Assembly: GCA_950295325.1 (NCBI GenBank) | Contig: OX485803.1 | Coordinates: 64,495,554-64,559,553, forward strand | Length of the DNA: 64,000 bases | DNA from: Polytrichum commune | Taxonomy: Eukaryota; Streptophyta; Polytrichopsida; Polytrichales; Polytrichaceae | Direction of reading: 5' to 3' | Shown here: piece by piece, positions 348-41,447 of the stretch | How positions within the stretch are numbered: position 1 is the first letter of the stretch | Layout of the letters: every line of letters begins with the position of its first letter | The notes under the pieces: generated by a model | What the model saw: the letters and a program-made list of their open reading frames with translations, nothing else | Databases searched by the model: none | Told to the model about the DNA's origin: nothing | Program-made: the position numbers and the translations under genes

Positions 348-2251
348 AAAGTTAGGTGGAGCAGGCAACAATTTTCGGTCAAGATATGAAAACTTTTGAT
401 TTTTTTGAGGGGGCTGCCCGGAGGTGCTAGATCACGGGCCCTGGCCCCTACCCACCTCCCCTTGAAAGTTCATAAGAGGAGGCTTCTTAACGTCCGCCGA
501 GGCTAATTTCAACTTGATGCTCCGGTTGAAAGAAAGACTCGAAACTTCTAATATATACTACAATTTGGGCAAACCAAGACCCTTGCCTCCATGGAACCAG
601 TGTACAGGTTGTTTCACCCGAGCCTAGCCTATATACTACCATATCAAAATCAAAATAGTGATTGAAACTTATCTCTAATAATGGAGTTACATAGGGGACA
701 CTCCAATACAAAAGGTGCACCATGTCCTTCCAAAGAGGGCTTTCCCAGGGTGGAATGAAACGATAGTTGGGAGGGTTGTCGCCAGGTGGAAACGCCAGCA
801 CAGCACATCGAACACAAAACGACACTGCCAACTAGAACTCCCTCGAGAAAGGAAGAGAGAAAGAAAGTGCTTTCTTCGTCCGCACAGAAGAGAAGCGAGA
901 AAATCTCCGAACTGGGCGTTGAGTCCCGTGCAACAGCCACACAACGCAAGCTTAAATCACTCTATAACTGAGCAATGAGCACAACTTAACTGGTAAACGA
1001 CTCCTGGGCATCACCACCATCTCCCGCCACCATCCCATTCCCTTCGCTGGGATTTCCGCCATTATCATGCTTCATGCTTCATGCTTCATGCCACCCTCAG
1101 CAACGCACCCTGCAATAACATAAAATTGTTTGTTTTTATTTGGTTGGTTGGTTATGTAAGTATGCGTGTGCGCTTGCTTCCATCACTGGCGTGGCAAGTG
1201 CATGATCCAGTTGTTGCTTCGTGTGTCAGTCAGGATAGCCATTGCAGGAGCTGGCCCATGATTCGTCGTGAGGCGCACAAGAAGCTTGGACTCAAGTTTG
1301 GTTGCTCCTATGATCATCACGCTACTTGTACACTCCGCCCTTGCTGCTGGGAACATTGAAGGATGTAAGTAAGGGTAGGGGCGTGGAGGAGGTTTGGAGT
1401 GGGTAGTTGGATTGGATTACGCATCTGGAGCTGAGCTCCTCTGAAGTTGTTCCCGGGGGCTGAATCAATCCGCGTGTATAGGAGTAAGAGAGGAGAAAGC
1501 GCCTTCTTTTTGTTGTTGTTGTCGTCGTCGTCGTTGTTGATTAGACCGGTGCAGTTGCAGCTGCATTGTTAGATTCGTCCGCGGAAGCTGGTGGTGCGGT
1601 GCCCAAGATTCGTCGTCGAGGTCCATTTTTGTTTCTCTTTTCTTTCATTTGACCCGAAGCTGGGAGTGGCTTGAGTGAGTGAGTGGGTCCGCTTGATCGA
1701 TCGGGAGGATTGATTTTGTAGTGGGTTTGTTGGTTCCTCTTCCTTGCTCAGGTTCTCTGGATTGGGTGTACTTTCGGTGTCGAAACGGGACTGAAAGGTA
1801 GAAGGACGTATAGATAGCTCGTTGCTGGAGATGATGAGCTCGAGAGGCCAAGAAAGGGATGAGCGCTAGCTAACGGATGTCGTTACAAAGTTGTCCTCCT
1901 CACCGATGATGGAGATCATCACCGTTGAAATGCATGTTTCGTGTCCAATTCCTCCCAAGCTAGCCTAGATAGATAGATCGCAGATAGATAAATGGATAGA
2001 TTGGTGTGTTGAGGATTGAAGAGTAAAGTGATAGCCTGTTATACAAGACACCATTGCTAGTTCATCTAAGTATTGGGGAAGGGTAGAATTCCGAAGCGAC
2101 AGTATGCGGTCATTGAAAACAGAAAGAAAGCAATAAAATATTCCGGATAGATAGTTTTAGAGTGGTCGGTATTTTTCTCCTGTGCTCAGGTACAAACTGA
2201 TAAGGAGGCTCAAAGATTCTCATTGAGCTCTCCAGTCCAAGGTCCACCGAA
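348..2251. other. Intergenic region upstream of the pectin methylesterase
   Basis: I see no gene here. There is a short GTT/GTC trinucleotide tract at about 1510-1540 and a GATA-like run near 1965-1990. Short open frames between 487 and 1851 overlap one another on both strands and show no family motif. The last several hundred bases probably hold the promoter and 5' leader of the gene starting at 2252, but I could not pick a TATA box with confidence. Confidence 0.4.
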
Positions 2252-5200
2252 ATGGGGACACCAAAACCTCAAACTAAGATCACCGCAGGATCCATAGCTC
2301 TTCTTTTTTCCTTTTTTTCTTTGATTGGGCTTTTAATCTTCCAAGAACCACTGCAAGCTCACGCCTTCACAAATCACCGAGTGACGGAGTCTTGGAATAA
2401 AGATGATGCTCAAGGTTCCAGATGGCGTGGTGATCTTTTTCCGGTATCATTACAACGGAGACTACTCCAAGCTCCTCCACCTGACAATTCCTACACGATT
2501 GGGTTAGCCTGTTCAGCAACACGGTACCCAGCCACTTGTTTGAACACCTTAAACCCTGATTCCCGTGCTCAAAATCTGAGTGCACAGGGGTTAGCCCAGC
2601 TGCTTGTGACCATTTCCAAAGAACGTTCATTCATCGCCATCGCTGATGGGCAGACTCTTGCAACTTCGGTGGTGCCGCCTGCGGCTAACCCCAACTTGAC
2701 TGCAGTCTCGGCTCAATGCACCGAAGAGCTCGATTTGGCTTCATATCATCTCCAAAACTCAGAGTTCGACTTTTCGGGGAATTTGTTGAAGGAGATCCAG
2801 GCATGGTTGAGTGGTGCATTGGCCCAAAGTAACGATTGTTACTATGCCTTAACCCCATTTCGAGACATGGTGAATGTGGATCCCTTTGTTCCTGCGATGT
2901 TGGACCGGATGAATGTGACGGTGGAGATTGTTAGTGATGCTTTGGCGATGGTGGATGCCCTTATTGGATTTGGCCCGGATGTGACGTTGTGGAAACCGCC
3001 TCCGGAGACAAGGGTGGAGCAGATCGACAGGTTGTTGAGCTCGTATTCTGATTTATTCCCGTTGTGGCTGGGGTCTAAGGATCAGATGGATATGAGCCAA
3101 GATTTGCAGGAGTTTACTCCCTCGGTCACCGTGTCGTTAAATTCCATGATGCCAAGTATTCAGGAGGCTGTCAACCAGGCCCCTTCTTGGAGCACCACAA
3201 GGTAGAATTTCATAACGTAACCCATGTGCGTGTTTGTTGGGACGATCGTGTGCAATTTTCAGAATGAGAGATTGAGTTGAGAGCTCTCTTCTTGATCATC
3301 GTAGACATTTCTTTTTCTGGATTGGAAATCAAGAACGGAGGTGGTTTTAGGCATTTCGGAGGATTCATCTGGTATCGACTACATTAACATGAAGTTTAGC
3401 ACTAATATCCATGTGCTCAGTTATTCTTCCGGCACTGTAGATAAAGCTTCTCTCGCATTCTTTTTCGGATGATCGTGCAATTTTCAGAGTGAGAGATTGA
3501 GAACCCTTCTTGATGATCGTTTGCATTGCGAGGATGTGGTATAATCTATATGAACACTTAGAAGGAGCTGTGATTATACAAATTGGCACTGTTTAGAGGA
3601 ATTGATTTCTGCCTCACAAAATCCGGTGGAATGTGGGTCTCATACCCATCGGCACAGAGATCTGTGCAGCTTCTCACATTCTCCGGAGATTGTGCAGATT
3701 TAAGAGATTGATAGCTCTCTGCTTGATCTTTGTAGACATTTTTTTTCCTGGATTGAAGACTAAGAAAATAGGTGGGCGTAGGCAGTTCGAAGATTCATCT
3801 GGTATAAACTACATGAACACTTGCAAGTTTAGCGTTAATATCCATATGCTCAGACATTGTCTCAGCACTCGATATCTAGCTTCGCTTGCACTCCACTTAT
3901 GAGGCAGTTTTCTGTCACATGTGATTGTTAAAGCAAGAGATTGACTGCGCTATTTGATCGTAGAAATTTCCTTTTTAATCATAATATAAGAAAGGATGGC
4001 GTGTGCATTTCAAGAGTTCATAAGCTACAAATTGCACTAATAATGCAGTTTTGCACTGCTTAGAAGAATGGATTTCTGCTTCATAAAACCGGGCAGGATG
4101 TGTTGCTACTGACGTTCCTTACCATCCACATGAAGTCCTTATTCACAATTTGATTGTGAAACCCTTCTTCACATTATCGCCTTTCACGTGAGAGTCCAGT
4201 GGGCTACAATTTGTGATTGTCTGTTTCACTGGGGCCTGCAAATAAAGATAGTTACGTCCGTTGACATGTGACGCAGCAAATAACGTTTTTTTGACATGAA
4301 ATATCAAATGTACCTCAGGTATGTGATCTACATCCAGGCAGGGATTTATAATGAAATTGTGAGAGTACCCAAAGAAAAGACCAACCTCATGTTTCTGGGA
4401 GATGGCATCGGCTTGACTGTCATCACAGGGAATATGGACACTTCGGTGATGGGCATGACCACTTGGCTCTCTGCTACTGTTGGTAAGTCAAACTCCTCGT
4501 AGGAGAAGCCCCTATTTTTCAATAAAGATTTTCTCGCTTCAATATTCTCAAGAATGTAGTGGTTGCTAGGGCTAACATTATGTGCCGTTCTCACATGTGA
4601 ACTACATTTGCATTTCTTGATTATGAACTCTTTCAGATGTGTAGGTCACCACCAGTGTTGGACTGGTATCATATTTGACTGATGCTACTCGGGTATAAGT
4701 ATTGACCTAAATAATAATTTGGGTATACGAGGATTCTTTAATCTTGTGGTAGCCAACAAGTATCAAAATTTGACTGGTATTACAATTTGGATACCGGATG
4801 GGGCTTTTATTTGATACCGTTATTGATATTGTATATTGATACCATGCAATATATGCATACTCCAACATTGATAACAACCCCTGAACTATTTACATGTAAC
4901 AAGGGTTGTGCAAATTTTTTGGGGACTAATGTAATCGTGGGATGTGCTTATGGCAGCTGTCAATGGAGCAGGATTTATTGCACGGGGTATCACATTTGAG
5001 AACTCGGCAGGTCCCGAGCAACATCAAGCAGTTGCACTGCGAGTTTCAGGTGACCAAGCTGCCTTTCAGAGTTGTTCTATTGAGAGTCACCAAGACTCAT
5101 TGTATGCACATACACTTCGGCAGTTTTATAAGGACTGCACGATAACTGGCACTGTGGATTTCATATTTGGGAACTCTGCCAGCATTTTCCAGAATTGCAA

Positions 5201-8423: not shown

Positions 8424-10916
8424 TCATTCACCAAGTGGTTGAGAGTAGTTTTTGTGACCTAATTTATGCTGCCACGGTTGCACACACATTCCTCCTACCT
8501 CATCATAGAACCAAACTTGCTTGGCTTTCTGTCGAATCACCTTGCTCTCTAACCCATCAATCCAGTTATTGTGCAACACATACACACCATTGCTCACACA
8601 AACCTGGACCACATTCGGATGCCACCAATACCCATCGGCTATACCATTTGGAAAAGTATGCCTATCCAAAAAGATAGTGCGCAGGCCATTTGCTGTCTTA
8701 CATTCAGTCGAATCAACTCGGAGCTGTCCCCGGTTGCCACACAAAACACGGTTGAATATTTGGTCTTCCACATCTGTTGATGTTCTTGTTCTCAACTGCT
8801 TCACAATCTCCTTGAACGTCTCGATCACTCGCGTGACGGCTTGCGCGTAGAAGAACCCCGAGTTCACGGTACCATGTCGGTTTGATGGTCGGTTCATATT
8901 TGGCTCATCGACCTGCACGGGAAACATGTCGGGTCCAAACGATTGCAAGTAGGGCAACGGATTCTTGAACCACACGACATCGAGATCACTCCACAAAACA
9001 TTATAACCTTTCTGCAAAATTTGTAACACAGCCTGCAACTTCATGATCAGAAGCTCCTGCAAACATGTTGACCTGGGGTTACAGTAATCGTTGCTTCTGG
9101 TATTGTTATTGTTTAAGGTTGGCTTCTCTTTTCGAGCTACTTTGAACACGGGCAGGCCTTGAAGGAAGGCGAACTTGTAAATTTCCTTGTCGAACGCGGC
9201 GACGAGGATGTTGTTCACTCCGAGAGACCGCGCACGACACATGAAACTCATCAGAAACTCCTTATACGCAACTGACACCCCAACGAGCACAATATTATTG
9301 TGACCATCGACAACCCGGGCGAGGAGCTGGTCCAAGTCATGTGAGAAATCAGGTCCAGTTCCGATTGCAGGGCTCCGGATGACCTCGAGCCGCATCCTCC
9401 CTTCCTTTTCGAGAAAAGTTTCGGAGTAATGCGTCCCAACAGACGGATCGTCCTCCCAGCTGTCACTCCCGCAACGGCAAGGAACTGCATCAGATCGCGA
9501 GCTGCTGACACACAATTGAATTGTGACAGGGTCTTGGCATGCAATGAGTTTCCACCCTCCGGAGAGAAGTTCCCGCTCCTCGGCCCAGAAGTCACGTTGG
9601 CTTCTGTACAAGTATAAGTTGGCAATAGACTGCCACTCTTCCACCGTGGAGCTCGACTTCAAAATCCTTTCAACAGGAAGAATCGGAATCGCGGGTCGAA
9701 ACGGTGGCGGTCGAAGCACGTGAAACCCGACTAGTGCGTCCGTAGAATCAACCACTGCTCGCATACCCTTTGCAAATCCGCGCGCCATCCATTGGTCATG
9801 GTAGCCCGCGCCGTAAGTGAACGGTGGCATGGGTGAAGGGAATAGAGGGTCGTCTTTGCTGTTCCCAAGATTCCATGCCCACATGTCAACTCCGTCCAAA
9901 ACCTCCAGCCGGCCAGAGGATCCGACATAACTCGCCAATTCGCGGTCAATCATCGAGTCCCCTGTGATCGAGTGCTCCAAAAAGATAATTCCCCCGCCCT
10001 TGTGGACGAACTTGAATGGGAGCTCCCGCATCGCGAGTTGCCGAGAAACCAACACCCAGTCGTCGAAGGTGCCTGCGATTTTTCGAATTCCCGGCATAAA
10101 GTCCTGCAGTAAGATGACGTTGGGTTGGATCAAGACAGTGACATTTGTGTCGGCCACATGCGCTCTGGCGACCATCGAGTTGAACATTGGCAGACCATTC
10201 AGGCTGTAGTCTATGCTGGCTTCCACCGACACCATCCCAGGAAACTCTTCTGCCACTTTATGTAAAGACGAGTGATTACCCAACAGGACAACTCGTGGCC
10301 GTGGGCTCAAATGCAACCATGACAGCAGTGCTTGCCGGTTAAAATCACTCTCACTCTCTGCAATTGCAGATGGTGCACTGAAAATTGTCACCGTAAGATG
10401 TTGTGAATTGTCGACCTCCTGAGGAGCTTTCTCCAAATCATTCTCCGCCCATTCAACTCGTTGGCGCAGCCATCTCACAGACGACGAGAGCCGATCATAC
10501 TCTTCCTCCACCGTTCCAACATACTGCGGGTCCGTGAAGTCGATCACTTTGTCTTCCTCCTCCTTTGAGTATATGCTCAATGTGGCTCTCTTTTGAAGCC
10601 GGGAAATGGTTTTTGGCAATTCTCGAAGAATGAGGCGTGAGCTCGACATCACTTCCCGGCGGTTGGGCAGACTCGGTGTGTGAGGATAGAACCCTGACAA
10701 GCTCACCAGGTTCACTAATAACGTTGCTGCAAGAATTGTTGCTAATGTGATGGCAGGATACACACATTTATTGCATTTCATCCTCCGTCGGGATGGGCGC
10801 CCCCCCGTGCAGATAAGTGCTGCTGCCACCACCACTCCCATGATTTTGATAACTAATAATCTACTCTCTGTTGCATTTGCTCTATTATCTTTCAGCAATG
10901 ATGATGATGAAACCAT
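8424..10916 (-). CDS. GT77-type nucleotide-sugar glycosyltransferase, single exon
   Basis: An uninterrupted 830-aa protein. An N-terminal hydrophobic segment at about residues 49-74 (AITLATILAATLLVNLVSL) after a basic stretch fits a type II Golgi membrane protein. Residues about 170-400 form a glycosyltransferase-like half (RPRVVLLGNHSSL, GLPMFNSMVARAH, TVLIQPNVILLQDFM, DDWVLVSRQL). The C-terminal half from about 530 matches the plant nucleotide-diphospho-sugar transferase (GT77) domain, with GYNVLWSDLDVVWFKNP carrying the metal-binding DxD near residue 643, then NSGFFYA. Relatives include arabinosyl- and xylosyltransferases of cell-wall glycans and arabinogalactan proteins. The two-part layout recalls Arabidopsis RAY1, but I cannot settle the orthologue. 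Sugar donor and acceptor are unknown. The first ATG was chosen; later in-frame Met codons before the membrane segment are possible starts. Confidence 0.9.
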   Translation of the reverse strand: MVSSSSLLKDNRANATESRLLVIKIMGVVVAAALICTGGRPSRRRMKCNKCVYPAITLATILAATLLVNLVSLSGFYPHTPSLPNRREVMSSSRLILRELPKTISRLQKRATLSIYSKEEEDKVIDFTDPQYVGTVEEEYDRLSSSVRWLRQRVEWAENDLEKAPQEVDNSQHLTVTIFSAPSAIAESESDFNRQALLSWLHLSPRPRVVLLGNHSSLHKVAEEFPGMVSVEASIDYSLNGLPMFNSMVARAHVADTNVTVLIQPNVILLQDFMPGIRKIAGTFDDWVLVSRQLAMRELPFKFVHKGGGIIFLEHSITGDSMIDRELASYVGSSGRLEVLDGVDMWAWNLGNSKDDPLFPSPMPPFTYGAGYHDQWMARGFAKGMRAVVDSTDALVGFHVLRPPPFRPAIPILPVERILKSSSTVEEWQSIANLYLYRSQRDFWAEERELLSGGWKLIACQDPVTIQLCVSSSRSDAVPCRCGSDSWEDDPSVGTHYSETFLEKEGRMRLEVIRSPAIGTGPDFSHDLDQLLARVVDGHNNIVLVGVSVAYKEFLMSFMCRARSLGVNNILVAAFDKEIYKFAFLQGLPVFKVARKEKPTLNNNNTRSNDYCNPRSTCLQELLIMKLQAVLQILQKGYNVLWSDLDVVWFKNPLPYLQSFGPDMFPVQVDEPNMNRPSNRHGTVNSGFFYAQAVTRVIETFKEIVKQLRTRTSTDVEDQIFNRVLCGNRGQLRVDSTECKTANGLRTIFLDRHTFPNGIADGYWWHPNVVQVCVSNGVYVLHNNWIDGLESKVIRQKAKQVWFYDEVGGMCVQPWQHKLGHKNYSQPLGE

Positions 10917-11204
10917 CCCTTAAACTTGAGATTTGTGAGTCATGGATACAGTATGACCTCCAGTGATGCGTGCTCCTCTGCCTCGTCATCCACAAACTGC
11001 TTCTCACAATCCTCTCCACCATTACTGCGCCAGATCGAAGCTGCCTTGAAGCAACCAAAAAGATGTCAAATTTCTGCCACCAAACAAGAAGCAGCAAGAC
11101 AGTTAGTTAGCATCACATACCGAGCTTTTGACATTTAGCTTAGTATGTTCAGAAAAAGACAACAAAATTGGAAGAGATTATTAGTGGGAATCATCGGCAG
11201 TTAT

Positions 11205-29485: not shown

Positions 29486-29550
29486 CGTTTGATTAAGGCC
29501 CACTTGCCTTACTTCATACTCTTATCATAACTGGTCGCTCATCGAAGTTA

Positions 29551-29620
29551 GGGGAGTGCTATCTTATGAGCGGTGAGCAATGAGCGGTGAGCGATGAGCG
29601 GTAACTTATGAGCAGTGAGG
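29551..29620 (+). repeat. Left terminal inverted repeat of the MULE
   Basis: It begins GGGGAGTGCTATCTTATGAG and continues as several short TGAGCGGTGAGCAATGAGC-type subrepeats, which are the units also seen in the right end. Confidence 0.85.
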
Positions 29621-29747
29621 AAGATGAAAATTTTGGTAATAGGGCCACCAATATCCTATAACCGTGGAATTGTGGCCTTAAAAATGATGATTTTAGGGTT
29701 TAGTAATAAGAGGCTTGAGAAGGATAAACAACATGAAGTCCAAAAAT

Positions 29748-32700
29748 TTATTCATCAGTAGTAGCACTAGACATGAAACTATCTTTTGCCTCGTCATCTA
29801 TATATATTCGAGCACCTTTGCATTGCGAATTGATTTTGGAACTATAGCAAGATTCTTCATTTGGATCCGAATCTTCGAGATTCAACATTGCAATTGCAAC
29901 ATTCTCGGCATATGATGGGAGACGCGGGCTACGGCTTGGACTTCGTAGGAATTGTCTATGTGCCCAAAACGGGAGACATGTCCTCTTTCCAATCGTATTC
30001 CTGAAATCAAATCGATGAAACATGTAAATAATGTGAAGAAATAAAAATGAACCAATGAATTGAATGAAACGAATGAATTGAATAAAAATTTATTGTATCA
30101 AAACTTACTCACACTCAAATTCAAGCATCTCCTCATCCGAGAGGTCATCATCTTCTTTTGTGAGATCTTGTATATTCTCCTTAGATGACCCCTCTTTCAA
30201 AACCTTTTCCAAAAGCGGTTTCAATATGTGCTCAAACATGTCATTATCACCCTCAAATGCAAGAAGATGTCTGCCACATGCGCGTGTTGCTAGGATAGAA
30301 GCTCCAGTGGAACACGTCAAATCAACAACGCGTCCATTCGATGGTGTAAACAATTCAATAAGATCTTGAAAAAAACGCGGCGATTTTTGATATGGCCCCC
30401 TCCAAGGTCTTCCCGATTTTTGAAGAAGCATGTTTTTTTCATCCACAAAATTGAAAAGCAAGTTTTTGCTTTTCAATCCAGTGCCAAAAAAAGTGGAGTT
30501 TGGTTGTCTCGTGGATTTTGTGGTAGTAAAATCCCTTACCAAGACATGAGCCATAAATGCCGGAGTCTACAAAAAAATATAAATTGTGTTAAAACTATAT
30601 ACAATACAAATAACACCAAAATAATTAAATAGAAACAATTGTGATGTGTTATACTTACGGTGTACGTTGGAGACTCCGGATCCTTGAACACCATGTACGA
30701 ATTGAGGCAAATAAAAGTCCTAACAACTTTCATGTTGCCGTTGTGTAAGGTTGAATTCAAAACCTTCTTGGTTTGCATATCGATAGCAGAAAATACTATG
30801 AGGACGCCATCATCAGACAAGATGGACTTGCACAAGGACATTGTTGCAACCATCCAGTTCTTGTCATATTTATTCCAAAGAGGAATTTCAGCAGGTTTAT
30901 TGGAGAGGTTGAAGTCAAGACCGTCGGGAAATTGGAGAAAAACCAAGTCAACGGCAAAGGGAGTCGGACTTCCCATGACATGAAATTCGCGATTGTCATT
31001 GAACTGAAATACCACAACATATCACAATATAAGACACAAAATAAAACCCAAATGAAAGTAAGAACATTAGAAGAAATTCCAAAACAATAACACTTACGTT
31101 TTCAATAAATTCCCGCCATTGGATCCACTCAGGAGGGCCTAAATCCACCCCTTTAGACTTGTTCTTGACAGCAGTAGATCGAGCAAACGAGAGCGTGAGA
31201 AAGTTCTTCAATATGAATAACTCTTTTCTCAAAATATCCGTTGGCGCACGATGAATAGCGTCATAGGTGCTGGAGTAATGAAATTCCAATACATCGCACC
31301 CATACTTTGAACTTTCGCCTCCAAGTGGATTCTTATCCAAATCATTGGAAAGAACAAGCAATTCTTCATGTTGTGAAATTTCCGATTGACCTTATATTTT
31401 GGTTTCAGGAACATGTTTCCTCTTACGACGTTTTGTCTCTTTTGGTTCTGGCTCTCTAAGTTTAAGCTGCACAATTTGTGCTTGCAAAATTGCAGTATCA
31501 CGAGGATCCACATTTTTAGCATCATTTATCTGACGGATTGTCTTCTCACTTGACGGACATGCATCCTTAGGACAATCAAGATACCAACCACAATCCTCAT
31601 AGTGTGGGAGCGACCAATCCAAACAAATCTCAGTAGTGAACATGCATGAATCTCCTGCACCAGTGTCACGCCAATTTGGGAAAAAACGAGGTTCCCCTAT
31701 AACGCATTTATGTGGAATCAAAACATATCAAAAATACCTACACACAAAAATATTGTAAGTCAAATATTCCATGACAATTTGACAAATGGAATAAAAAAAA
31801 TCAAAAAAATAATAAGATTAGGTTGTACCTGTATAATACACGTTTCATAGCAAGATCAATATTAGGTTGCTCATCCCAACCGTTGTGTTTTTTAACTTTT
31901 CCGCTTTGGAATTCACGATAGAATATTGAATTGAAAGCCGCAAACTTCCAGGTTTGGATATACTCGGAGAGAGTAGGCACATCTGCAGGCAACTGAAGAG
32001 GAGATGAAAGAATACTTTGAAGCTCTTCGATAGCTTTTTTTTCCAACTGTGCCCAATATGTAGACTTTGATAACCAATCATCAAGTGCAGAATCAGAGAG
32101 GGGCGATTTCGGGAAGTGCAATGCATCTTTGTCAAATCTATTGTCATTCCAAAGTTTGAGCCATCCAACTTTGACTTCTGAATCCACATTACTGACAGCA
32201 ACACGATGAAGTTTCTCTTGTAGCATTTCAGGCACCGAAAATGAACCCCAATGGTGCTTAACTTCTTCAAGGAAAGCAGAGGTAAGGTTGATGTCGACAA
32301 TCGCTAGTTGTTTCGTAAAACTAGAAGATAACATTGCACGTTTTTTATTGACAGCTACGGACATTGCTTTTGAAACTCCGTCTGATGTCCGTTCAAGAGG
32401 ATGAGTTTCATTGTACTGGTTGAGAGCAATATCGCTAGCCTCAGCAAGTTCTTGCTGAAAAATCAAACAAAAGTTAATATTTATAAGTACATATAGATGT
32501 AATGTAAAATGAAGATGAATAAACATAAGGCACATATTAGCAATGGTAGAAGAACTTACACTGTACATGTAATCCAAAAAAAGTGGTCGTGTCAAAGAAT
32601 ACCAAGTTTCAACGGACTTCTCCTCACATCGTTTATAATTCTTTGGATCCAGTTGCTTTCTGAAGGAAGTCAAAGGCATGGTGCCTATACTTTGCATCCG

Positions 32701-35700
32701 ATATAAAGTATGCACCAAATTGGTGGATACGTGAGAATTTTCGGTTGACCTAAAAAAAAATTTAAATTGATTAGATTCATGATGATATAATTTGGATAAC
32801 AAAATATAAACTAGAAATAAGTATAAAAAAATAGGTAAGAACATTACTTGTTGATGTCATGCATAGCAGTCAACAAACTTGGAATATCGTCAAGCTCGGG
32901 CGCCAAAATGATAGAATCCACGAAGACATGACGTTCATAATCTTCGGTATATACGCGGTCAATATAATTTTTCCAAGCAAAAAATCTGTGATTTCCATCC
33001 CATATAAAAAACATCTTGTTCTTGTATGACGTCAATGACAAATCTGTATCCAATTGAGATTCAAACAGGGCATTGGCTTGAGCCCAATTTGGGCTCCAAG
33101 ATGCGCGAACCTCATCATCCACGAATTGAAAGTTTCCCTTAGAATCGGTGGCCGATATATAAAACACACGGTCACCATCACGATAACCATTAAAAAAATC
33201 AGACTCCAATTTAGTAATGTCACCCTTCAAAGCAGGACGCACAATCGGCATAGGAACCATGCGACATAAGGGTACACGCAAGCGAGCATTAGGTCCAGCA
33301 CGGATTGAAGAAATTGTGGAAGTGGAATTGACCTTTCGTTTGTTCGTAAGCTCCCACACTTTCTCTTGATAAGTTTCATTGTCACCATCATTATCTTCAT
33401 CCGAGTCAAAATCATCGAGGGATTCATTTATTTTTTTCTTTTTCTTATTATGAAGATTTGACGATATATCCTGATGATGATGAACCTGTTGAGATGGACG
33501 ATCTTGAGTTGAATGCATTGTGCAATCATCATCAGTCGAAATAAGAGTCGTTCTCTCCAAATCCATTGATTCGTCCTAAAACAAATGAAATAAGTTTAAT
33601 AAATAATCCAAAACCAGTAGCAACACATTAGCAATAACATTACAAAACCAACAGCAATAGCAACAACAATAACAACATAATACCACGAACACAGGGAAAA
33701 ATGACAAAAATTATTCTACACATTGCCATTTACATCTCTAAATATTGTACGATTACGGTGGCCGCTCACCCCAAAACTACAAGGGCAGACCCTGTGCGTT
33801 AACGCACAGGGTCTGTGTGTCCAACTACAGGTCTACAAAAGTTGGGCGCGAGGTTTGCGTCGAATGACCCAAACTGTCCACCCAGTTTCGATCGAGCGAC
33901 CCAAACCGCCTACAGCCAGTTTGGGTCAGATGACCCAAACTTTCTACGCGTGGTTTGGGTCGGCCGACCCAAACCATGCGGACAGTTTGGGTCGGTCGAT
34001 CCAAACCATGCTCACAGTTTGGGTCGACCGACCCAAACCATGCTCACAGTTTGGGTCGGTCGACCCAAACCATGCTCACAGTTTGGGTCGGTCGACCCAA
34101 ACCATGCTCACAGTTTGGGTCGACCGACCCAAACTAGGCGGACAGTTTGGGTCGACCGACCCAAATTAGGCGGACAGTTTGGGTCGACCGACCCAAATTA
34201 GGCGGACAGTTTGGGTCGACCGACCCAAACTGTCCGCAATTTACGCCTGAATATGCGCAAATACCCTGTCATCACGAAAGTACAAACAAACCTTGTACTG
34301 CACCTGTAGATGAGAGAGCTTGCAGCGTCGAGCTAAGGTCCGACAGATGAGAGAAAAAAGACTGAATGCTTTGGGGGTGTGGCAATTTATACTACTCGTC
34401 CTTACAGCCATATTTAGCGTGGCTCTTCGTGGCCCTGCATAGCCGCTAGAAAGTTGTCAGCGTAGACCCTGTGCGTTAACGCACAGGGTCTACGCTGGCA
34501 ACTTTGAGGCCACTGTGCGTTAGCGCATAAGGCCTGTGCGTTAACGCACAGGGCCGAGGCATGAATTTTATAAAAAACTTTTTTTTTTGAATTTGATAAA
34601 AAACTTTGTCTGGAATTGGTAGATTTGCCAAAACTTGTAAAATCTGGAAAAAATGCTAATGGGGTCCAAAAAAAAAAACAAAAATATGCTATATTATCTA
34701 AATCTCCGTAGCTAAAAATTCTTCTCATATTTTTTTTTGGTTTGAAATCATTTTCTTTTCTCATTCTTCTATCTATTTCCTTGTTTTGGGCCACCTCGTA
34801 GATTTTGGGTTTCGGGGCAAGAAAAAAATTATGCTATTTTGTGTCATTTTCTAGCTCCTATAACGTATTGCATGAATACTTGAGTAGACATATTTCTCAT
34901 TTCTTGCATTCTAACCCCGTTTTGAATAGTTTTTTTGGTCCTACGCTCTGAATATCGATTTAAATTCATACAATAGATATTTGTTTTACTTTTAGGCTCT
35001 CCTAGTCGTTTTACCTCCCAATTTTTGGCGTTCCTAAGTTGCTCTTACAAACCCTGTGCGTTAACGCACAGGGTTTTAGCTCCGAACTTTGGCCTTCCTA
35101 AGTTGCGCTTACAAATCATGTGCGTTAACGCACAGGGTTTCTCCTCCCAACTTTTTGCCACCTAAGTTGCTCTTACAAACCCTGTGCATTAACGCACAGG
35201 ATTTCCCTTCCTAACTTTTGGCCTTCCTAAGTTGCTATTACAAACCCTGTGCGTTAACGCACAGGGTTTTAGCTCCCAACTTTTGGCCTCCCTAAGTTGC
35301 TCTTATAAACCCTCTACGTTAACGTATAGGGTTTTACCTCCCAACTTCTCGACTCCTAAGTTGCTCTTATAAACCCTCTGCGTTAACGTATAGGGTTTTA
35401 CCTCCCAACTTCTGGCCTCCTAAGTTGCTCTTATAAACCCTCTGCGTTAATGTATAGGGTTTTACCTCCCAACTTCTCGACTCCTAAGTTGCTCTTATAA
35501 ACCCTCTGCGTTAACGTATAGGGTTTTACCTCCCAACTTCTCGACTGCTAAGTTGCTCTTATAAACCCTCTGCGTTCTCCTCCTGACTTCTAGCCTTCCT
35601 AAATTTTTGTTATATACCATGTGCATTAACGTATAGGGTTTCTCCTCTCCAATTTCTAACCTCTATAAATTGCTACTACAGGACATGTGAGTGAACGTAC

Positions 35701-36047
35701 AAGGTTCTCCGTCCTAACTTACAACTTATGCACTATCAAATTATGTGAACGTTGAACTGACTTACTTTTTTGTTTGTCATCTTCTTTGAACCCGTCTTCA
35801 ATTCGGACTCTGATACACGATCGTCTACATCTTCTTTGCTCTTTGCACCTTCATCATCCTCCATCGCATCAAAATCCAGTGTCTTCACAGTTTCCTCTAC
35901 CATACTCAACAAGTTTCTTTTCCCTTTCTTATTTGCATTCTTCTTTCCCACACTCAGTCTGAATCTCTTTTTCTCGGAAGTGAAATACAAAGCTTTCCTA
36001 CGTCTTCTCTTCGGCCTCACGGGTGTTCTCTCTACATCGTCCACCAT
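29748..36047 (-). CDS. MULE accessory gene: ParB-like and DNA-methyltransferase-like protein, 8 exons, one in-frame stop
   Basis: Minus-strand exons: 35766-36047, 32848-33575, 32560-32749, 31842-32454 (or ending 31829), 31098-31696, 30659-31003, 30109-30566, 29748-30000. All but the exon 4-5 junction join in phase at GTAAGT-like donors; there the good donor breaks the frame and a weak GTGTAT donor keeps it. About 1155 codons. Exon 1 is basic (PKRRRRK), fitting nuclear import. Exon 2 has an acidic stretch, then MFFIWDGNHRFFAW, like the ParB/sulfiredoxin DGxHR motif. Exon 6 has AVDLVFLQFPDGLDFN where N4/N6 methyltransferases carry DPPY. Exon 7 has RPWRGPYQKSPRFFQDLIEL and VVDLTCSTGASILATRACGR, resembling their SAM-binding motif. 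TAA at 31392-31394 interrupts exon 5, so this copy may be dead. The role is inferred: a transposon accessory factor. Confidence 0.72.
33915..34236. repeat. Palindromic minisatellite, about 10 units of ~32 bp
   Basis: Each unit has the 20-bp inverted repeat TTTGGGTCGACCGACCCAAA or a variant with GGTC or GGCC at the centre, separated by short linkers such as CCATGCTCACAG or TAGGCGGACAG. Some units carry one substitution. A related array lies in the intron of the transposase gene. Confidence 0.95.
35036..35705. repeat. Tandem array of ~63-bp units around a GTTAAC-centred palindrome
   Basis: About eleven units of 62-64 bp begin with CTAAGTTGCTCTTACAAACC. In the proximal units the palindrome is CTGTGCGTTAACGCACAG flanked by CC/GG. 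From about 35310 it becomes CTCTACGTTAACGTATAG, with changes on both arms that mostly keep pairing, then decays. One unit near 35560 has lost its right half and the last units are degenerate. Confidence 0.9.
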
Positions 36048-36569
36048 CGTTGGTGTCTATGATATGTTTTCTATCAGGTACTATCATTTATTCTTCCAAT
36101 GTATCTATCTCACAAAATCCGGCGTATATTATGATCACATGTTGTAATTGGCGTTCAATGAGCGAGATATTTCGACGCGTTTGTCATTATGTGTTTATTT
36201 TTGTTATATCCGCCAAAATTTTCTGACACCTACTTTGTTCTATTCATAATGATCAATAATTTATTTTTCCAACCAATTTTAATTCTTTCTACATCTACGT
36301 CAGTCCACACATATATATTTTAAATTTCTACCAATATTTTTAGTATTTGACGCCATTTTGTGTATATCTTGCTCGTAAATATTCTCTGACTATTATTGTG
36401 TTATGTCCATTTCTGTATTATTAGATGCTATGTATCACACGCTTTCATCTCCATCCATTATTGTATCACACGTTTTCATTTCCATTCATTTCCTCACACA
36501 ACTCTATACAAAAGTAACATTCACCCCATATTCTTGTGATATATTGTTCATATGTTCTTTTGATTTTCT
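36048..36569. promoter_or_regulatory. Divergent promoter region of the two MULE genes
   Basis: The 522 bp between the start codons of the accessory gene (-) and the transposase (+) must hold both 5' leaders and promoters if the models are right. The stretch is AT-rich and has no coding frame of note. I could not assign specific TATA boxes or start sites. Confidence 0.5.
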
Positions 36570-39500
36570 ATGGCTACCATTAGAGCTCATGGATCTTTTG
36601 TTCCCTTCATCTTGCCACTCCAAGATGATGGTCATGTGAGTATTTCAGAGGATTTATTTAGTTTGAGATTCAACCTCCAGATAGGAACCATGTATTTAGA
36701 GCATGAGATGTACTCTGCAAATGGAGAGGTGTATGAAACGATTTTGGTTCCAAAAAATAGAACTGATGTTGGTTTTATGTGGATCCTAGGACCTGGTTCA
36801 TTTAGGGTGATAGGACTTTCTGAGTCTCAGATGCAAGTTTCAACTGTCATTTTGACAAACGAATCCGGTACATCCACAGTTCAAATTCCCTCTATCGCAC
36901 CTGTTAAGGTGGAACCCCTTGATGATAGTGTGTTTGTGCTATCAGATTCAGAAGATGACATTTGTGCATCTATTGATCTTTCAAACACATCGCCATTTCC
37001 ATTTAGAAGTGTTCATTCTACTCCTTCCCAACTTCCTATACATGTAGCCAAATTCCCTTGCGGTCTTATGTACAAGAAGGTGGTTCCCCAAATCTCACCT
37101 TCTCAACGTCCTCCACTACACCCTTCACCTTCATCTACAGGGTTGACTATGATTGATGCCTTGAAGCTGACAAAGTCAAGAAAAAGATCAAAGTCCGATC
37201 TTGCATCCATTGATTTTGACAGTATAGATGTTCGTGAAGTCAAGTACTTACCATCTTCTTTTAATGGTGATGTTTTGTTTCTCTTGCCTCCTGTGGCACT
37301 CAAAGCTCCAAATACGTATGGTCGCTCAATGGACGGCATGGACAAGATGTGCGACGGTCACCCTTGGTGCACCACCAAAACCACGAATATCCAAAATGAC
37401 TTTGGACTGTCTTTCCGGCGCTCTACTTGTGCTGGTCATCTCGAATGTCATAATGACTACTGTGATTACATGAATCGCAATGGGGGCCTCCGGAACAACA
37501 CTGAATGGGCCGGTTCAACTCCTATCCCATTTGCTGTGGGTGTTGTTCCCCCTACTAAGTCCACTGTCGAGTGTAAGGTATGTCGTTCCACACCTGTGTG
37601 CATTGCTTTGTGTAATGCTCGAATCATATACATCCAGTCCACATCCGTTGGAATGTCCAGGGCTTGCATTCATCTTGGTGTACATGATCACCCTGTGGCC
37701 AATGGCACATGCCGTGAATCATTGGACATGGCATACCAATGCGTTGCAAATGAGGTATTGAAAACACCCACAGCAAAAAATTCAGCCATAGTTATGGCGG
37801 CGAGCAAACAATTCTTGGCCGATTACCTTCTCAAATCTCCCGCAAATGTCGAAGGCCATCACTTGGTTGGTTCATCCCTAGAGGTCGTCATGGACAAATT
37901 CAGCACTCTTGCGTCCCCAAATTGTCGTGACTTTGTATCTGGATCAAAGCGTTTTTTGCGTAGTGGAATGGGAACTATGGATAGTATTATGGCGCTCAAA
38001 GACCACTCTGCTTTCAAATTCGTCCATGGTAGTCGGTTCCCAGGGCAGTCAAAGGACAAAGTGTTTATTTTCAAGATGTCTGTAGACCTTCCAGGTAGTG
38101 GTGTGGAGCTTGTGAGGAGGATGCAAGTCGGTGGGGATATGGAGAATTCATGGATTATGTTTGACCATGTCAAACGTTTGAAGGACTGGACGACCATGGC
38201 TTGCCATGTGTACGACAGTCGATACTGTAAAGTGTTGACTATTGCGTGTTGTGACATGCAATCTGAAGATGGTGCAGCACAAATTCTCTTTTGGGAAAAT
38301 TTGAATGCTGTCATGGCAGAAAATGGTGTACCAAACGTAAACTTCAAAGGATTTATGGCTGATAGTGCTCAAGCTAATTGGAATGCGGTGAGGGCGATTT
38401 ACGGGGATGGTGATCCAAGTCTACCCATGGTTGCACGTGAGCGTACATGTCTTTTCCATTGGTCCGCAAGCTTGGATAAGGTGACCCAAAAGTATATCAA
38501 ACCATCATTGCAATTTCAACACAAACAAATATGCAAGGATTACAAAGACGCGAAAACAATGGACGACGCTGAGACCAAGTACCATGTGATTCGTTCTTGG
38601 TGGTTGTCATCTGGAGCTGCCTCCGAAGAAGGCATCCTTGGCCTTTCAGAGTGGTTGGGATTTTGGCACTTTCGTTACAGACAATGGGGTGGCCATATGC
38701 TACTTGTAAGTACATATCAAACTTCATTATTCAATGTAATATATCTTATGTTTTTCTTATCTTTGTTTTTCTGTGTTGTTCATAGGATATGACAATAGAA
38801 AAACGTGCGGGAATGCCAACATGCAACCTTGCAGAGACTGTACACAACAAACAACAAACAGTTTGGGTCGTTCGACCCAAACGTGGCAGCCATTTTGGGT
38901 CGAACAACCCAAACTGCGCAAACAGTTTCGGTCGTTCGACCCAAACCTTGTATGCAGTTTGAGTCGAACGACCCAAACATGGCAGCCATTTTGGGTCGAA
39001 CGACCCAAATTGCGCAAACAGTTTCGGTCGTTCGACCCAAACCTTGTAGGCAGTTTGGGTCGTTCGATCCAAACGTGGCAGCCATTTTGGGTCAAACGAC
39101 CCAAACCTAGATATATAATCTATCTTATGTTTGTCTTATCCTTGTATTTGTGTGTTGTTCATAGGATATGACAATAGAAGAGCGTGCAGAAATGCCAACA
39201 TGCAACCTTGCAGAGACTGTACACAACAAATGGCTCCAACAGTCCGGCAACAAGATGACTTGTTTATATGAAGCTACAGTGGACGACATGATCCGTGCCT
39301 TCATGCAAATTGCAAATTACCGGACATGGTTGAAAGGGGGGTCTGATGGTAAAGGTCCTGATTCGGCCTCCTTGAAACTCAAAGCAGCTGCCAGGTGTGG
39401 AGATCCAAAAATGTTGGCTGATGCCATGAAGTCTTACCCAGGGGCAGAAGACGTCAACACTAGAGATTGTGCATTGGAAGGGTCAGAACTCTTTGGTTCT

Positions 39501-40532
39501 ACCAAACGCAAACTCAACCTACCACCGGGTGCTGATTGTGACTCTCATCGACCCGACAAAGTGAACTATTCCATTCCTCGTCCCAACACCCGAGCAACTC
39601 GTCAACGCATAGAGGAATCGTTGAGTTCTGCAATTCATGATGTGGCTCATACTACATCCGTGTTAGAGACTGATTGTCTTGCTTCCAATTGGCACATTGC
39701 AAGATTACCACCCAACTCAGCCAAACGATGTTGGGCACTGCAGGCCATTACAGGGACTATGTGCAATGCTAAAATCGGGACTGGGAAACATGGCACACCT
39801 GCCCCAACATACAAAGGGCTCAGGAAGGAATTTCGATCTCCCAACAATGTGGAGTATGAATTTTGGTTTTGCCCTGACGACATCAAGCGTTGTGTGAGTG
39901 GCAGTAAGAAGAAATATGTGTTGGACTGGCCTATAGTACCCAACACGTGGCCGGTGAAGATAGGTACCAATCTATCGAGAAAGGAGGTTTTGGCACTTGA
40001 AGATGCTGGATTTCAACTACAGCAGAGGGAGGCATTGTCCCCTCGTCGTAGGCTTTCAACAATTGCAACTCTCCCCATCCCTCGCTCGTATTTTTCTATA
40101 CCACCAAACCCGGATGCCCACCCTACATTCAGGTTTGGGAAGACAGTGCGTCGTAATCCAACAGCACCGCTAGCGGATCACAAAAACAAATGGGAGAGTG
40201 CCGGACTCATGGAGGGTTACTATGTGGTTGGGATCACTGCCATTCCATATCCGGGCTTTGGAGTGATAATCAACATTGTCTCCAAGCAGGATATCACCTA
40301 CCATGTGACAATTGGCGACATCCCGCATTGCACATGCCCGGATTTCACGAAAATGTCCTCTCATGCATTGGGAAAGAAAGGAAAATGGGTGTATTGTAAA
40401 CATCTTTATTATGTGTTTAGATTTTTGTGCAAGGTGGATTACGAGAGTGACAAGTTCATTCATGCACCTACATATACCTATAATGAGGTCATGCGACTAC
40501 TTGAACTTGCTGGTATTGTAGAATGTGAGTAG
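36570..40532 (+). CDS. MULE transposase, 2 exons
   Basis: Exons 36570-38705 and 39165-40532 (donor CTT|GTAAGT, acceptor TTCATAG|GAT) join in phase to an open 1167-aa protein. The N-terminal third has a Cys/His-rich zinc-binding region (CAGHLECHNDYCDYMNR, NNTEWAGS, CKVCRSTPVCIALC) of the FLYWCH/WRKY-GCM1 kind seen in MULE proteins. A DDE-type core follows (MFDHVKRLKDW, GFMADSAQANWNAVRAIYG, CLFHWSASLDKV). Exon 2 ends with a SWIM zinc finger (HCTCPDFTKMSSHALG then VYCKHLYYVF; C-x-C...C-x-H), a common MULE feature. Its role is to bind the terminal repeats and cut and join DNA in the nucleus. The intron contains a duplicated exon 2 start and a minisatellite. AATAAA at about 40574 may be the poly(A) signal. 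The third catalytic acidic residue was not assigned. Confidence 0.88.
38741..39228 (+). repeat. Duplicated intron/exon junction flanking the minisatellite
   Basis: About 38741-38855 and 39113-39228 are copies of the intron 3' end and exon 2 start: both hold GTGTTGTTCATAGGATATGA, then GCCAACATGCAACCTTGCAG. Only the second acceptor leads to an open frame. The first reads into the minisatellite and stops (GCAGTTTGAG). Confidence 0.85.
38858..39112. repeat. Palindromic minisatellite in the transposase intron, 8 units
   Basis: Eight units of TTTGGGTCGTTCGACCCAAA or TTTGGGTCGAACGACCCAAA, some with single changes, spaced by linkers such as GTGGCAGCCA and CCTTGTAGGCAG. The outer arms are the same as in 33915-34236, but the centre is TT or AA instead of AC or GT. 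Confidence 0.95.
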
Positions 40533-41225
40533 TATTGCAAGTGTTCTATTAAACAACATATATTTCAATGTCAATAAATGACATGTTTTGGTTTGGATTA
40601 TTATAATAAAAATTAGCAATGGACTGAAAGTATTTCAAATGATTCAGTAACTTCATTTCTATTTAGACTACACCCAACCGTGAGCGGTTTCATTTATTCA
40701 TACGGATAAATAATAACAAGTTTCTAAAAATAAAAAATAATTAAGAAGATTCTACGCACATCCGCGTAGTAATGTCTTCTTGGTATCCGCCTATAGATTA
40801 TTCCTTCTTTATCACTAGCTCAATTTGGGATAGCACCAGTCAATGTAACCAACCGGATTCGAACCCGGGCTGATCCAGACCTAATACCAGTCTCTTACAC
40901 AACTCGCATCCACAGGCGGATGTCTCAAAACCTAGTAACTACCTACATATTGACAATTTCTATTATCTAATTTCCTTGTTTTTGTAGATTGTGGGCCTTA
41001 ATTCAACCCGTGAGCGGTTTGAGTGGCTCACAATTATGGCACCTACATATACGTATAATGAGGTTATGCACCTACTTGAATTTGCTGCTGTTGTAGAATG
41101 TGAGTAGTTGTACAAGTGTTGGTTGTAACTACATGTATAAGGATGTCAATAAATTACATGTATTTGTTTGGATTATTATAATAAAAATCAGCAATGTATT
41201 GAAAGTGCTTTAAATGATCCATGGC
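40465..41225 (+). repeat. Duplicated 3' end of the transposase gene
   Basis: About 40465-40660 recurs at 41040-41225. Both contain GCACCTACATATACSTATAA, TTGTAGAATGTGAGTAGT, a TGTCAATAAATGACATG-like block and TTTGGATTATTATAATAAAA. The second copy encodes the last codons again but is not joined to the gene. Confidence 0.85.
40691..41007 (-). mobile_element. Candidate tRNA-related SINE inserted in the MULE 3' region
   Basis: A 317-bp insert is flanked by the 13-bp direct repeat CCGTGAGCGGTTT (40678-40690 and 41008-41020). On the minus strand it contains GGGTTCGAATCC, a perfect RNA polymerase III B box, preceded at tRNA-like distance by GAGTTGTGTAAGAGACTGG, which resembles a D-arm. I could not fold a full tRNA, so it is a tRNA-derived or degenerate sequence rather than a tRNA gene. 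Confidence 0.5.
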
Positions 41226-41351
41226 AATAGGGCCCTTTCACTTATGTTTCATTTAAAATACTTGCAATTTACAATTGAAAATATGCAATTAATTTGTCAA
41301 AATTGTGGTTGTGTACCCTAAACCCGTGTGTCTTTACTAAATTTGGATTCA

Positions 41352-41435
41352 TTGCTCATATGTTACTGCTCATTGCTCATGTGTTACTGCTCACCGCTCA
41401 CCGCTTACTGCTCATCGCTCATAAGATAGCTTCCC
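41352..41435 (-). repeat. Right terminal inverted repeat of the MULE
   Basis: Read on the minus strand it starts GGGAAGCTATCTTATGAG and continues with GAGCGATGAGCAGTAAGCGG-type subrepeats that mirror the left end. It is followed by the TCATCGAAGTTA duplication. Confidence 0.85.
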
Positions 41436-41447
41436 TCATCGAAGTTA

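Follow-up and report, generated by a model that had tools for sequence, protein, structure and literature searches.

The 64,000-nucleotide stretch of the Polytrichum commune genome analysed here (contig OX485803.1, positions 64,495,554 to 64,559,553 of the forward strand; G000:C1:64495554-64559553 in our searches), hereafter the window, contains one member of a large family of Mutator-like DNA transposons in a plant genome. The element is about 12 kb long and has two divergent genes, a transposase gene on the plus strand and an accessory gene on the minus strand. By structure comparison on a homolog, the N-terminal part of the accessory protein has a ParB/sulfiredoxin (ParB/Srx) fold; a methyltransferase-like domain follows, and the introns of both genes carry arrays of a 22-bp palindrome. 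Our tentative reading, to which we give a probability of roughly 0.4, is that this fusion protein acts as a self-directed palindrome binder that counters host silencing in the manner of VANC.

The element and its two genes

Ten further copies were picked among the better-scoring matches, not at random, in the genome searched (408 Mb, 64 contigs), giving eleven with the window copy. In blastn comparisons the copies align across both genes at about 93–99% identity outside the repeat arrays, and the alignments stop at the same bases or close to them, L039 being without its left end. Comparison of the window with the other copies sets the limits of the element at 29551–41437. The left terminal inverted repeat (29551–29619, plus strand) starts with GGGGAGTGCTATCTTATGAGC followed by 14-bp sub-repeats, and the right one (41369–41437, minus strand) ends in GATAGCTTCCCTC; positions 29558–29619 and 41369–41430 match over 62 nt at 87% identity, as expected from the original prediction of matching terminal repeats. 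The prediction of a 12-bp target duplication held for its existence but not for its length. Comparison of copies gives a duplication of 10 bp, ATCGAAGTTA, at 29541–29550 and 41438–41447, and the extra 'TC' is the end of the element. Exact 10-bp duplications surround 9 of the 11 copies, and one copy has 9 bp. Terminal inverted repeats with target duplications of about 9–11 bp characterise Mutator-like elements (MULEs), so the anatomy fits the predicted class, but the transposase matched no MULE profile. Pfam scans of its first exon and DDE-like core gave no match, and the window was absent from 142 PF10551 matches in its own genome (150 of 271 candidates scored). Comparison by hhalign with seven PF10551 open reading frames from L001–L008 gave no signal, using a profile of only four near-identical rows.

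Under a GT-AG splice model the transposase has about 1,165 amino acids in two exons. Exon 1 (36573–38705, plus strand) is an open reading frame in which a DDE-like core can be recognised by eye, and exon 2 (39165–40532) encodes a C-terminal SWIM-like finger. An open, SWIM-containing transposase had been predicted; the gene is indeed open over both exons, but the SWIM-like CxC...CxH tail is seen by eye only, and PF04434 scores below its cut-off (E 0.076, 13.0 bits against 19.6). With the window's splice model the gene is open in 4 of the 11 copies (window, L039, L041 and L045). Within 38780–39165, the end of the intron (38706–39164), including the acceptor, and the start of exon 2 are duplicated on either side of a palindrome array, with the motif at 38780 and again at 39159.

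The minus gene runs from 36047 to 29748 in eight putative exons with GT-AG introns and encodes 1,173 amino acids. Putative exon 1 (35766–36047) adds 94 residues of basic and acidic character and is uncertain. Exon 2 (32848–33575) encodes the ParB/Srx-fold domain, exon 3 (32560–32749) a helical part following the ParB core, and exon 4 (31829–32454) a linker. Exon 5 (31098–31737) is followed by exons 6 (30659–31003) and 7 (30109–30566), which hold the methyltransferase-like motifs, and by exon 8 (29748–30000), the last, with the stop codon. The eight predicted exons were thus recovered, but the gene is not intact in the window and its first exon is doubtful. Exon 5 contains two in-frame stops, a TGA at 31728–31730 and a TAA at 31392–31394, in the window copy alone; each is a one-base difference from the ten other fetched copies, all of which read through. 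Both genes are open in two of the eleven copies, L039 and L045, under the window's splice model. A TATA-like promoter and leader stretch at 34402–34276 on the minus strand is shared in conserved form by another element in the L045 flank (score 54, against at most 31 in 60 shuffles). Because of this conserved promoter-like stretch, exon 1 is perhaps foreign to the gene, and translation may begin at the ATG at 33566 in exon 2, giving a protein of about 1,076 amino acids.

The accessory gene had been predicted to be carried by the element, and it lies inside the element in all ten fetched copies. ParB-like and transposase-core matches are considered here as the best 150 of 1,195 candidates and the best 150 of 1,864 candidates, respectively. 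Within these lists a divergent ParB-like match lies at most 20 kb from 96 of the 150 transposase matches, where random placement gives 0.56. The genome search suggested with the prediction recovers many copies with a transposase and a divergent ParB-like gene. Chance, or an ordinary host gene, is rejected on the 150 scored ParB-like matches, the position of the gene in the fetched copies and these counts. Against this, 29 of the 118 ParB-like matches of at least 80% identity in the best-150 lists lack a divergent transposase listed at 20 kb or less, as do all seven at 50–80% identity and 18 of the 25 below 50%. Solo copies of the accessory gene may exist, the absence of a partner resting on these lists.

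The accessory gene diverges faster than the transposase: in seven divergent pairs the transposases are 81–92% identical to that of the window, and the ParB-like stretches 44–48%. Among the eleven copies, pairwise ratios of nonsynonymous to synonymous change in the minus gene are 0.12–0.38 for exons 2–7, 0.47 for exon 1 and 0.66 for exon 8; for the two transposase exons they are 0.57 and 0.22. In the ten other copies exon 8, by the left end of the element, shows 99–100% identity to the window, and synonymous difference falls from 0.10–0.12 in minus-gene exons 2–3 to 0.007 there.

Domains of the accessory protein

The original prediction had described a ParB-like region, and the structure search it proposed bore this out, the three-dimensional fold of a homolog being that of the ParB/sulfiredoxin superfamily. 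A signature of this superfamily is G-x-[HR]-R, to which the DGNHR of exon 2 conforms. DGNHR is present in all eleven copies; across 63 sequences its N and H are invariant, and D, G and R are each conserved in at least 90%. Both motifs named in the prediction, DGNHRFFAW and VVDLTCSTGASILATRACGR, are present in the minus gene. Structure work with the window exon alone gave nothing usable. Three of three ParB-region members tested had no Pfam match, and none of the 18 Pfam families matched by any of 63 ParB-region relatives was a ParB family, the best matches being DUF5531 (E 6.3e-5, one member) and DUF1015 (0.061, two members). Of two profile searches of PDB with the ParB part, one returned weak unrelated rows and the other none. 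A tblastn search with this part against phages gave four records only, at E 3 or more, and a search with the full-length protein gave no match at E 0.01.

The predicted N4/N6 methylase-like domain was likewise found when profiles were searched. In the window subfamily it matches phrog_67 (E 1.2e-7) and, below the cut-off of 26.7 bits, PF01555 (20.9 bits), matches that place it with the beta-class N6/N4 amino-methyltransferases. Together with the ParB-like domain and the position opposite a transposase, this gives the element the gene arrangement described for a class of algal transposons. The catalytic motif is altered. Motif IV has the canonical form (D/N/S)PP(Y/F/W); the window subfamily departs from it, DLVFLQFPDG in exon 6 replacing DPPY. 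The residues are QFPD in 9 of the 11 copies and QFPN in L043, and L057 has a stop there. The motif X/I region in exon 7 (PWRGPYQK..., VVDLTCSTGAS...GRHLLAFEGD) has CSTG as motif I in all eleven copies. Five metagenome relatives (P0001, P0002, P0003, P0005 and P0006) have QFPD, QFPN or QFLD at motif IV, and P0008 is frame-shifted at this point. L060 reads DLPEG at motif IV and ASTS in the motif I region; its row in alignment A2 (row 2) has a second-frame stretch between motifs IV and I, and alignment A4 was built without it. Exon junctions in the alignment rows of L059 and L060 are approximate.

A near-canonical form was found in L062, which has DIPYG and GTG motifs, exceeds the PF01555 cut-off (35.3 bits) and lies 9.6 kb from a divergent transposase 93% identical to that of the window; the DIPY type is known from this one stretch of 654 bases. 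A divergent PF01555 match occurs within 20 kb of 10 of the 54 transposase matches that lack a listed ParB partner (best 150 of each). These ten transposases are 92–96% identical to that of the window, and a single PF01555 match among the ten exceeds the family's cut-off. Judged from these sequences, similar transposases seem to be paired with accessory genes in differing states, from near-canonical ones to degenerate ones. On two small contigs, C10 and C12, N6_N4_Mtase matches are strong, with E values as low as 9.6e-26; these contigs are perhaps bacterial contamination.

Palindrome arrays and proposed function

Twelve 22-bp palindromes of the form GTTTGGGTCG-NN-CGACCCAAAC lie at 33853–34230, in the minus-gene intron that precedes exon 2, mostly with a period of 32 bp, and eight more lie at 38861–39106 in the transposase intron, also with a 32-bp period (up to three mismatches allowed throughout). 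All 20 sites in the window are within the element, and no shuffled sequence gave any. A spacing of 32 bp amounts to roughly three turns of the helix, so the sites would share one face of the DNA. A second palindrome, CCTGTGCGTTAACGCACAGG, is present in nine copies (up to three mismatches) at 33791–35522, partly in a 64-bp tandem array at 35008–35576. The 22-bp palindrome was found in the introns of both genes in all eleven copies, with 3–22 sites in the minus-gene intron and 1–8 in the transposase intron, where L055 has one only. In its exact form it occurs 9,231 times in the genome, and the reversed control not at all; recurrent spacings are 32, 57, 64 and 78. The diverged subfamily represented by L059 has different palindromes, amid 85-bp repeats, and L060 has no palindrome array within the stretch read. 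At L045/L046 (first 1.7 kb of the oriented copy; C1:63977300-63993440), an adjoining element piece carries the palindrome eleven times, together with a related promoter stretch.

Our preference for a self-directed DNA binder, with an anti-silencing or regulatory effect, comes from the ParB fold, the arrays of palindromes and the change in the catalytic motif. The parallel with VANC and VANDAL elements is drawn because the arrays lie in the introns of both genes, the diverged subfamily has other palindromes and the accessory gene diverges fast. The accessory protein would bind the 22-bp palindromes as a dimer, like bacterial ParB on parS palindromes, and would then load along the element. Host silencing would be excluded or reversed, as VANC does for Arabidopsis VANDAL elements, and both element genes would stay expressible. 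The methyltransferase fold of the window subfamily would serve as a non-catalytic module binding DNA or a cofactor; accessory genes with the DIPY motif may still methylate. The countering of host silencing put forward in the original prediction is possible and is the reading we favour, with binding to DNA, not methylation, as the means.

Element-specific motifs in tandem repeats within non-coding parts are what a VANC-like system would have; the sites in both introns of all eleven copies and the different palindromes of L059 are of this kind, but the palindrome is also found outside listed family members. Of the first 100 listed sites of the 22-bp palindrome, 77 are grouped in three regions, each spanning about 10 kb (36, 16 and 25 sites; C1:616088-626110, 1180627-1190831 and 2115505-2125786), with spacings such as 35, 57, 64 and 78 and no listed family matches; the remaining 23, judged by eye, are within 20 kb of such matches.

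An extension of the preferred reading, which we regard as somewhat unlikely, is a ParB-parS-like system built by the transposon. The introns of the element and of its relatives would have been seeded with phased target arrays on which the protein spreads and blocks silencing, and accessory genes and arrays would diverge and be exchanged beside similar transposases in a two-part arms race.

It is unlikely, though only a little more so, that the protein is a transcriptional autoregulator or a transposition helper of the mudrB kind, binding operators within the first intron of its gene and within that of the transposase gene so as to set the transposase level or help excision, and leaving host silencing untouched. 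The divergent arrangement of the genes and the arrays in both introns, one of them just downstream of the promoter-like stretch, would suit such a role. A helper would be expected to have its sites at the element termini, and neither palindrome is present there; the numbers of sites and the fast divergence would also suit an arms race better.

Self-marking, in which ParB-guided binding is followed by N6-adenine or N4-cytosine methylation that protects or labels the element, is improbable. The methyltransferase-like domain is recognisable and L062, with its DIPY and GTG motifs and above-cut-off score, stands beside a closely similar transposase; against this are the single stretch in which the DIPY type was read, the CSTG of every window-subfamily copy and the departures from motif IV in L060 (there with ASTS) and the five metagenome relatives. 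The original suggestion that the element marks or protects its own DNA by methylation is not borne out for the window subfamily, in which self-methylation appears unlikely because nine of the 11 copies have QFPD at the place of the DPPY-type motif. Equally improbable is that the arrays have no connection with the ParB-like gene and are either palindromic minisatellites of an ordinary kind or sites used by the transposase or by a host factor: transposon introns commonly contain tandem repeats, palindromes vary from 1 to 22 per intron and clusters exist without a listed partner, but one and the same palindrome recurs in 32-bp units, at other spacings and, 11 times outside the element at L045, in 78-bp units with unrelated spacers, and each of the 174 sites tallied, accepted with up to three mismatches, has thymine at positions 4 and 8 of both arms.

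Elsewhere in the window, an open reading frame with a PMEI domain, which points to a plant genome, lies at 2204–3202, and an 831-residue open frame on the minus strand at 8427–10919 has a Nucleotid_trans domain (E 1.4e-33) and looks like an ordinary host gene.

Relation to known systems

The ParB-methylase accessory gene type is itself already known from algal transposons. PMC12477816 describes, opposite the Sola transposase of Ectocarpus Sola1-1_Ec32, an accessory gene for a 1104-residue protein with ParB and N4/N6-methyltransferase domains, cites green and red algal cases of the same type, and suggests self-methylation of the element. The moss gene shares with that class, as it is described there, the two domains, the strand opposite the transposase and a similar protein length, a likeness drawn from the description of the proteins. 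It differs in its carrier, which is Mutator-like by target duplication and anatomy and present in high copy in a plant genome, and in the altered catalytic motif of the window subfamily and the phased palindrome arrays. The main text of a MULE survey (PMC6446971) does not mention ParB, methylase or methyltransferase, and in the literature searched the gene type was found in algal transposons (PMC12477816) and in no Mutator-like element or land plant. Going by these searches, what is new is that a Mutator-like element carries such a gene, that it does so in a plant genome, that both altered and near-intact motifs occur next to similar transposases, and that there are arrays of palindromes.

Maize MuDR, with mudrA and mudrB, is likewise a two-gene Mutator-type element; its gene orientation and accessory protein differ from those described here. 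Bacterial ParB-parS systems and phage ParB-methylase fusions share the ParB fold and, if the palindromes are targets, their clustering. GERR is the CTPase box of bacterial ParB; here DGNHR takes its place, none of the members scanned matched PF02195, and the gene is an intron-split eukaryotic one within a transposon. We know of no ParB or methylase in VANC, and the likeness to it is not based on protein homology. VANDAL elements resemble the moss element in being of Mutator type, in having an extra gene and in their intronic tandem-repeat motifs. According to PMC5735166, PMC10398659 and PMC13317346, short motifs lie in tandem repeats in introns of element genes, and motifs and protein vary among related elements; the VANC21 motif described there is the 9-base YAGTATTAY, whereas the palindrome here is long.

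Few cases of counter-silencing by transposons, including that of VANC, are understood in detail. The moss element places a bacterial-type DNA-clamp fold in a plant transposon together with a candidate target palindrome, which makes binding directly testable. With near-intact and altered motifs beside similar transposases, whether such proteins methylate or only bind, a question raised for the algal transposons, becomes addressable within one clade of elements.
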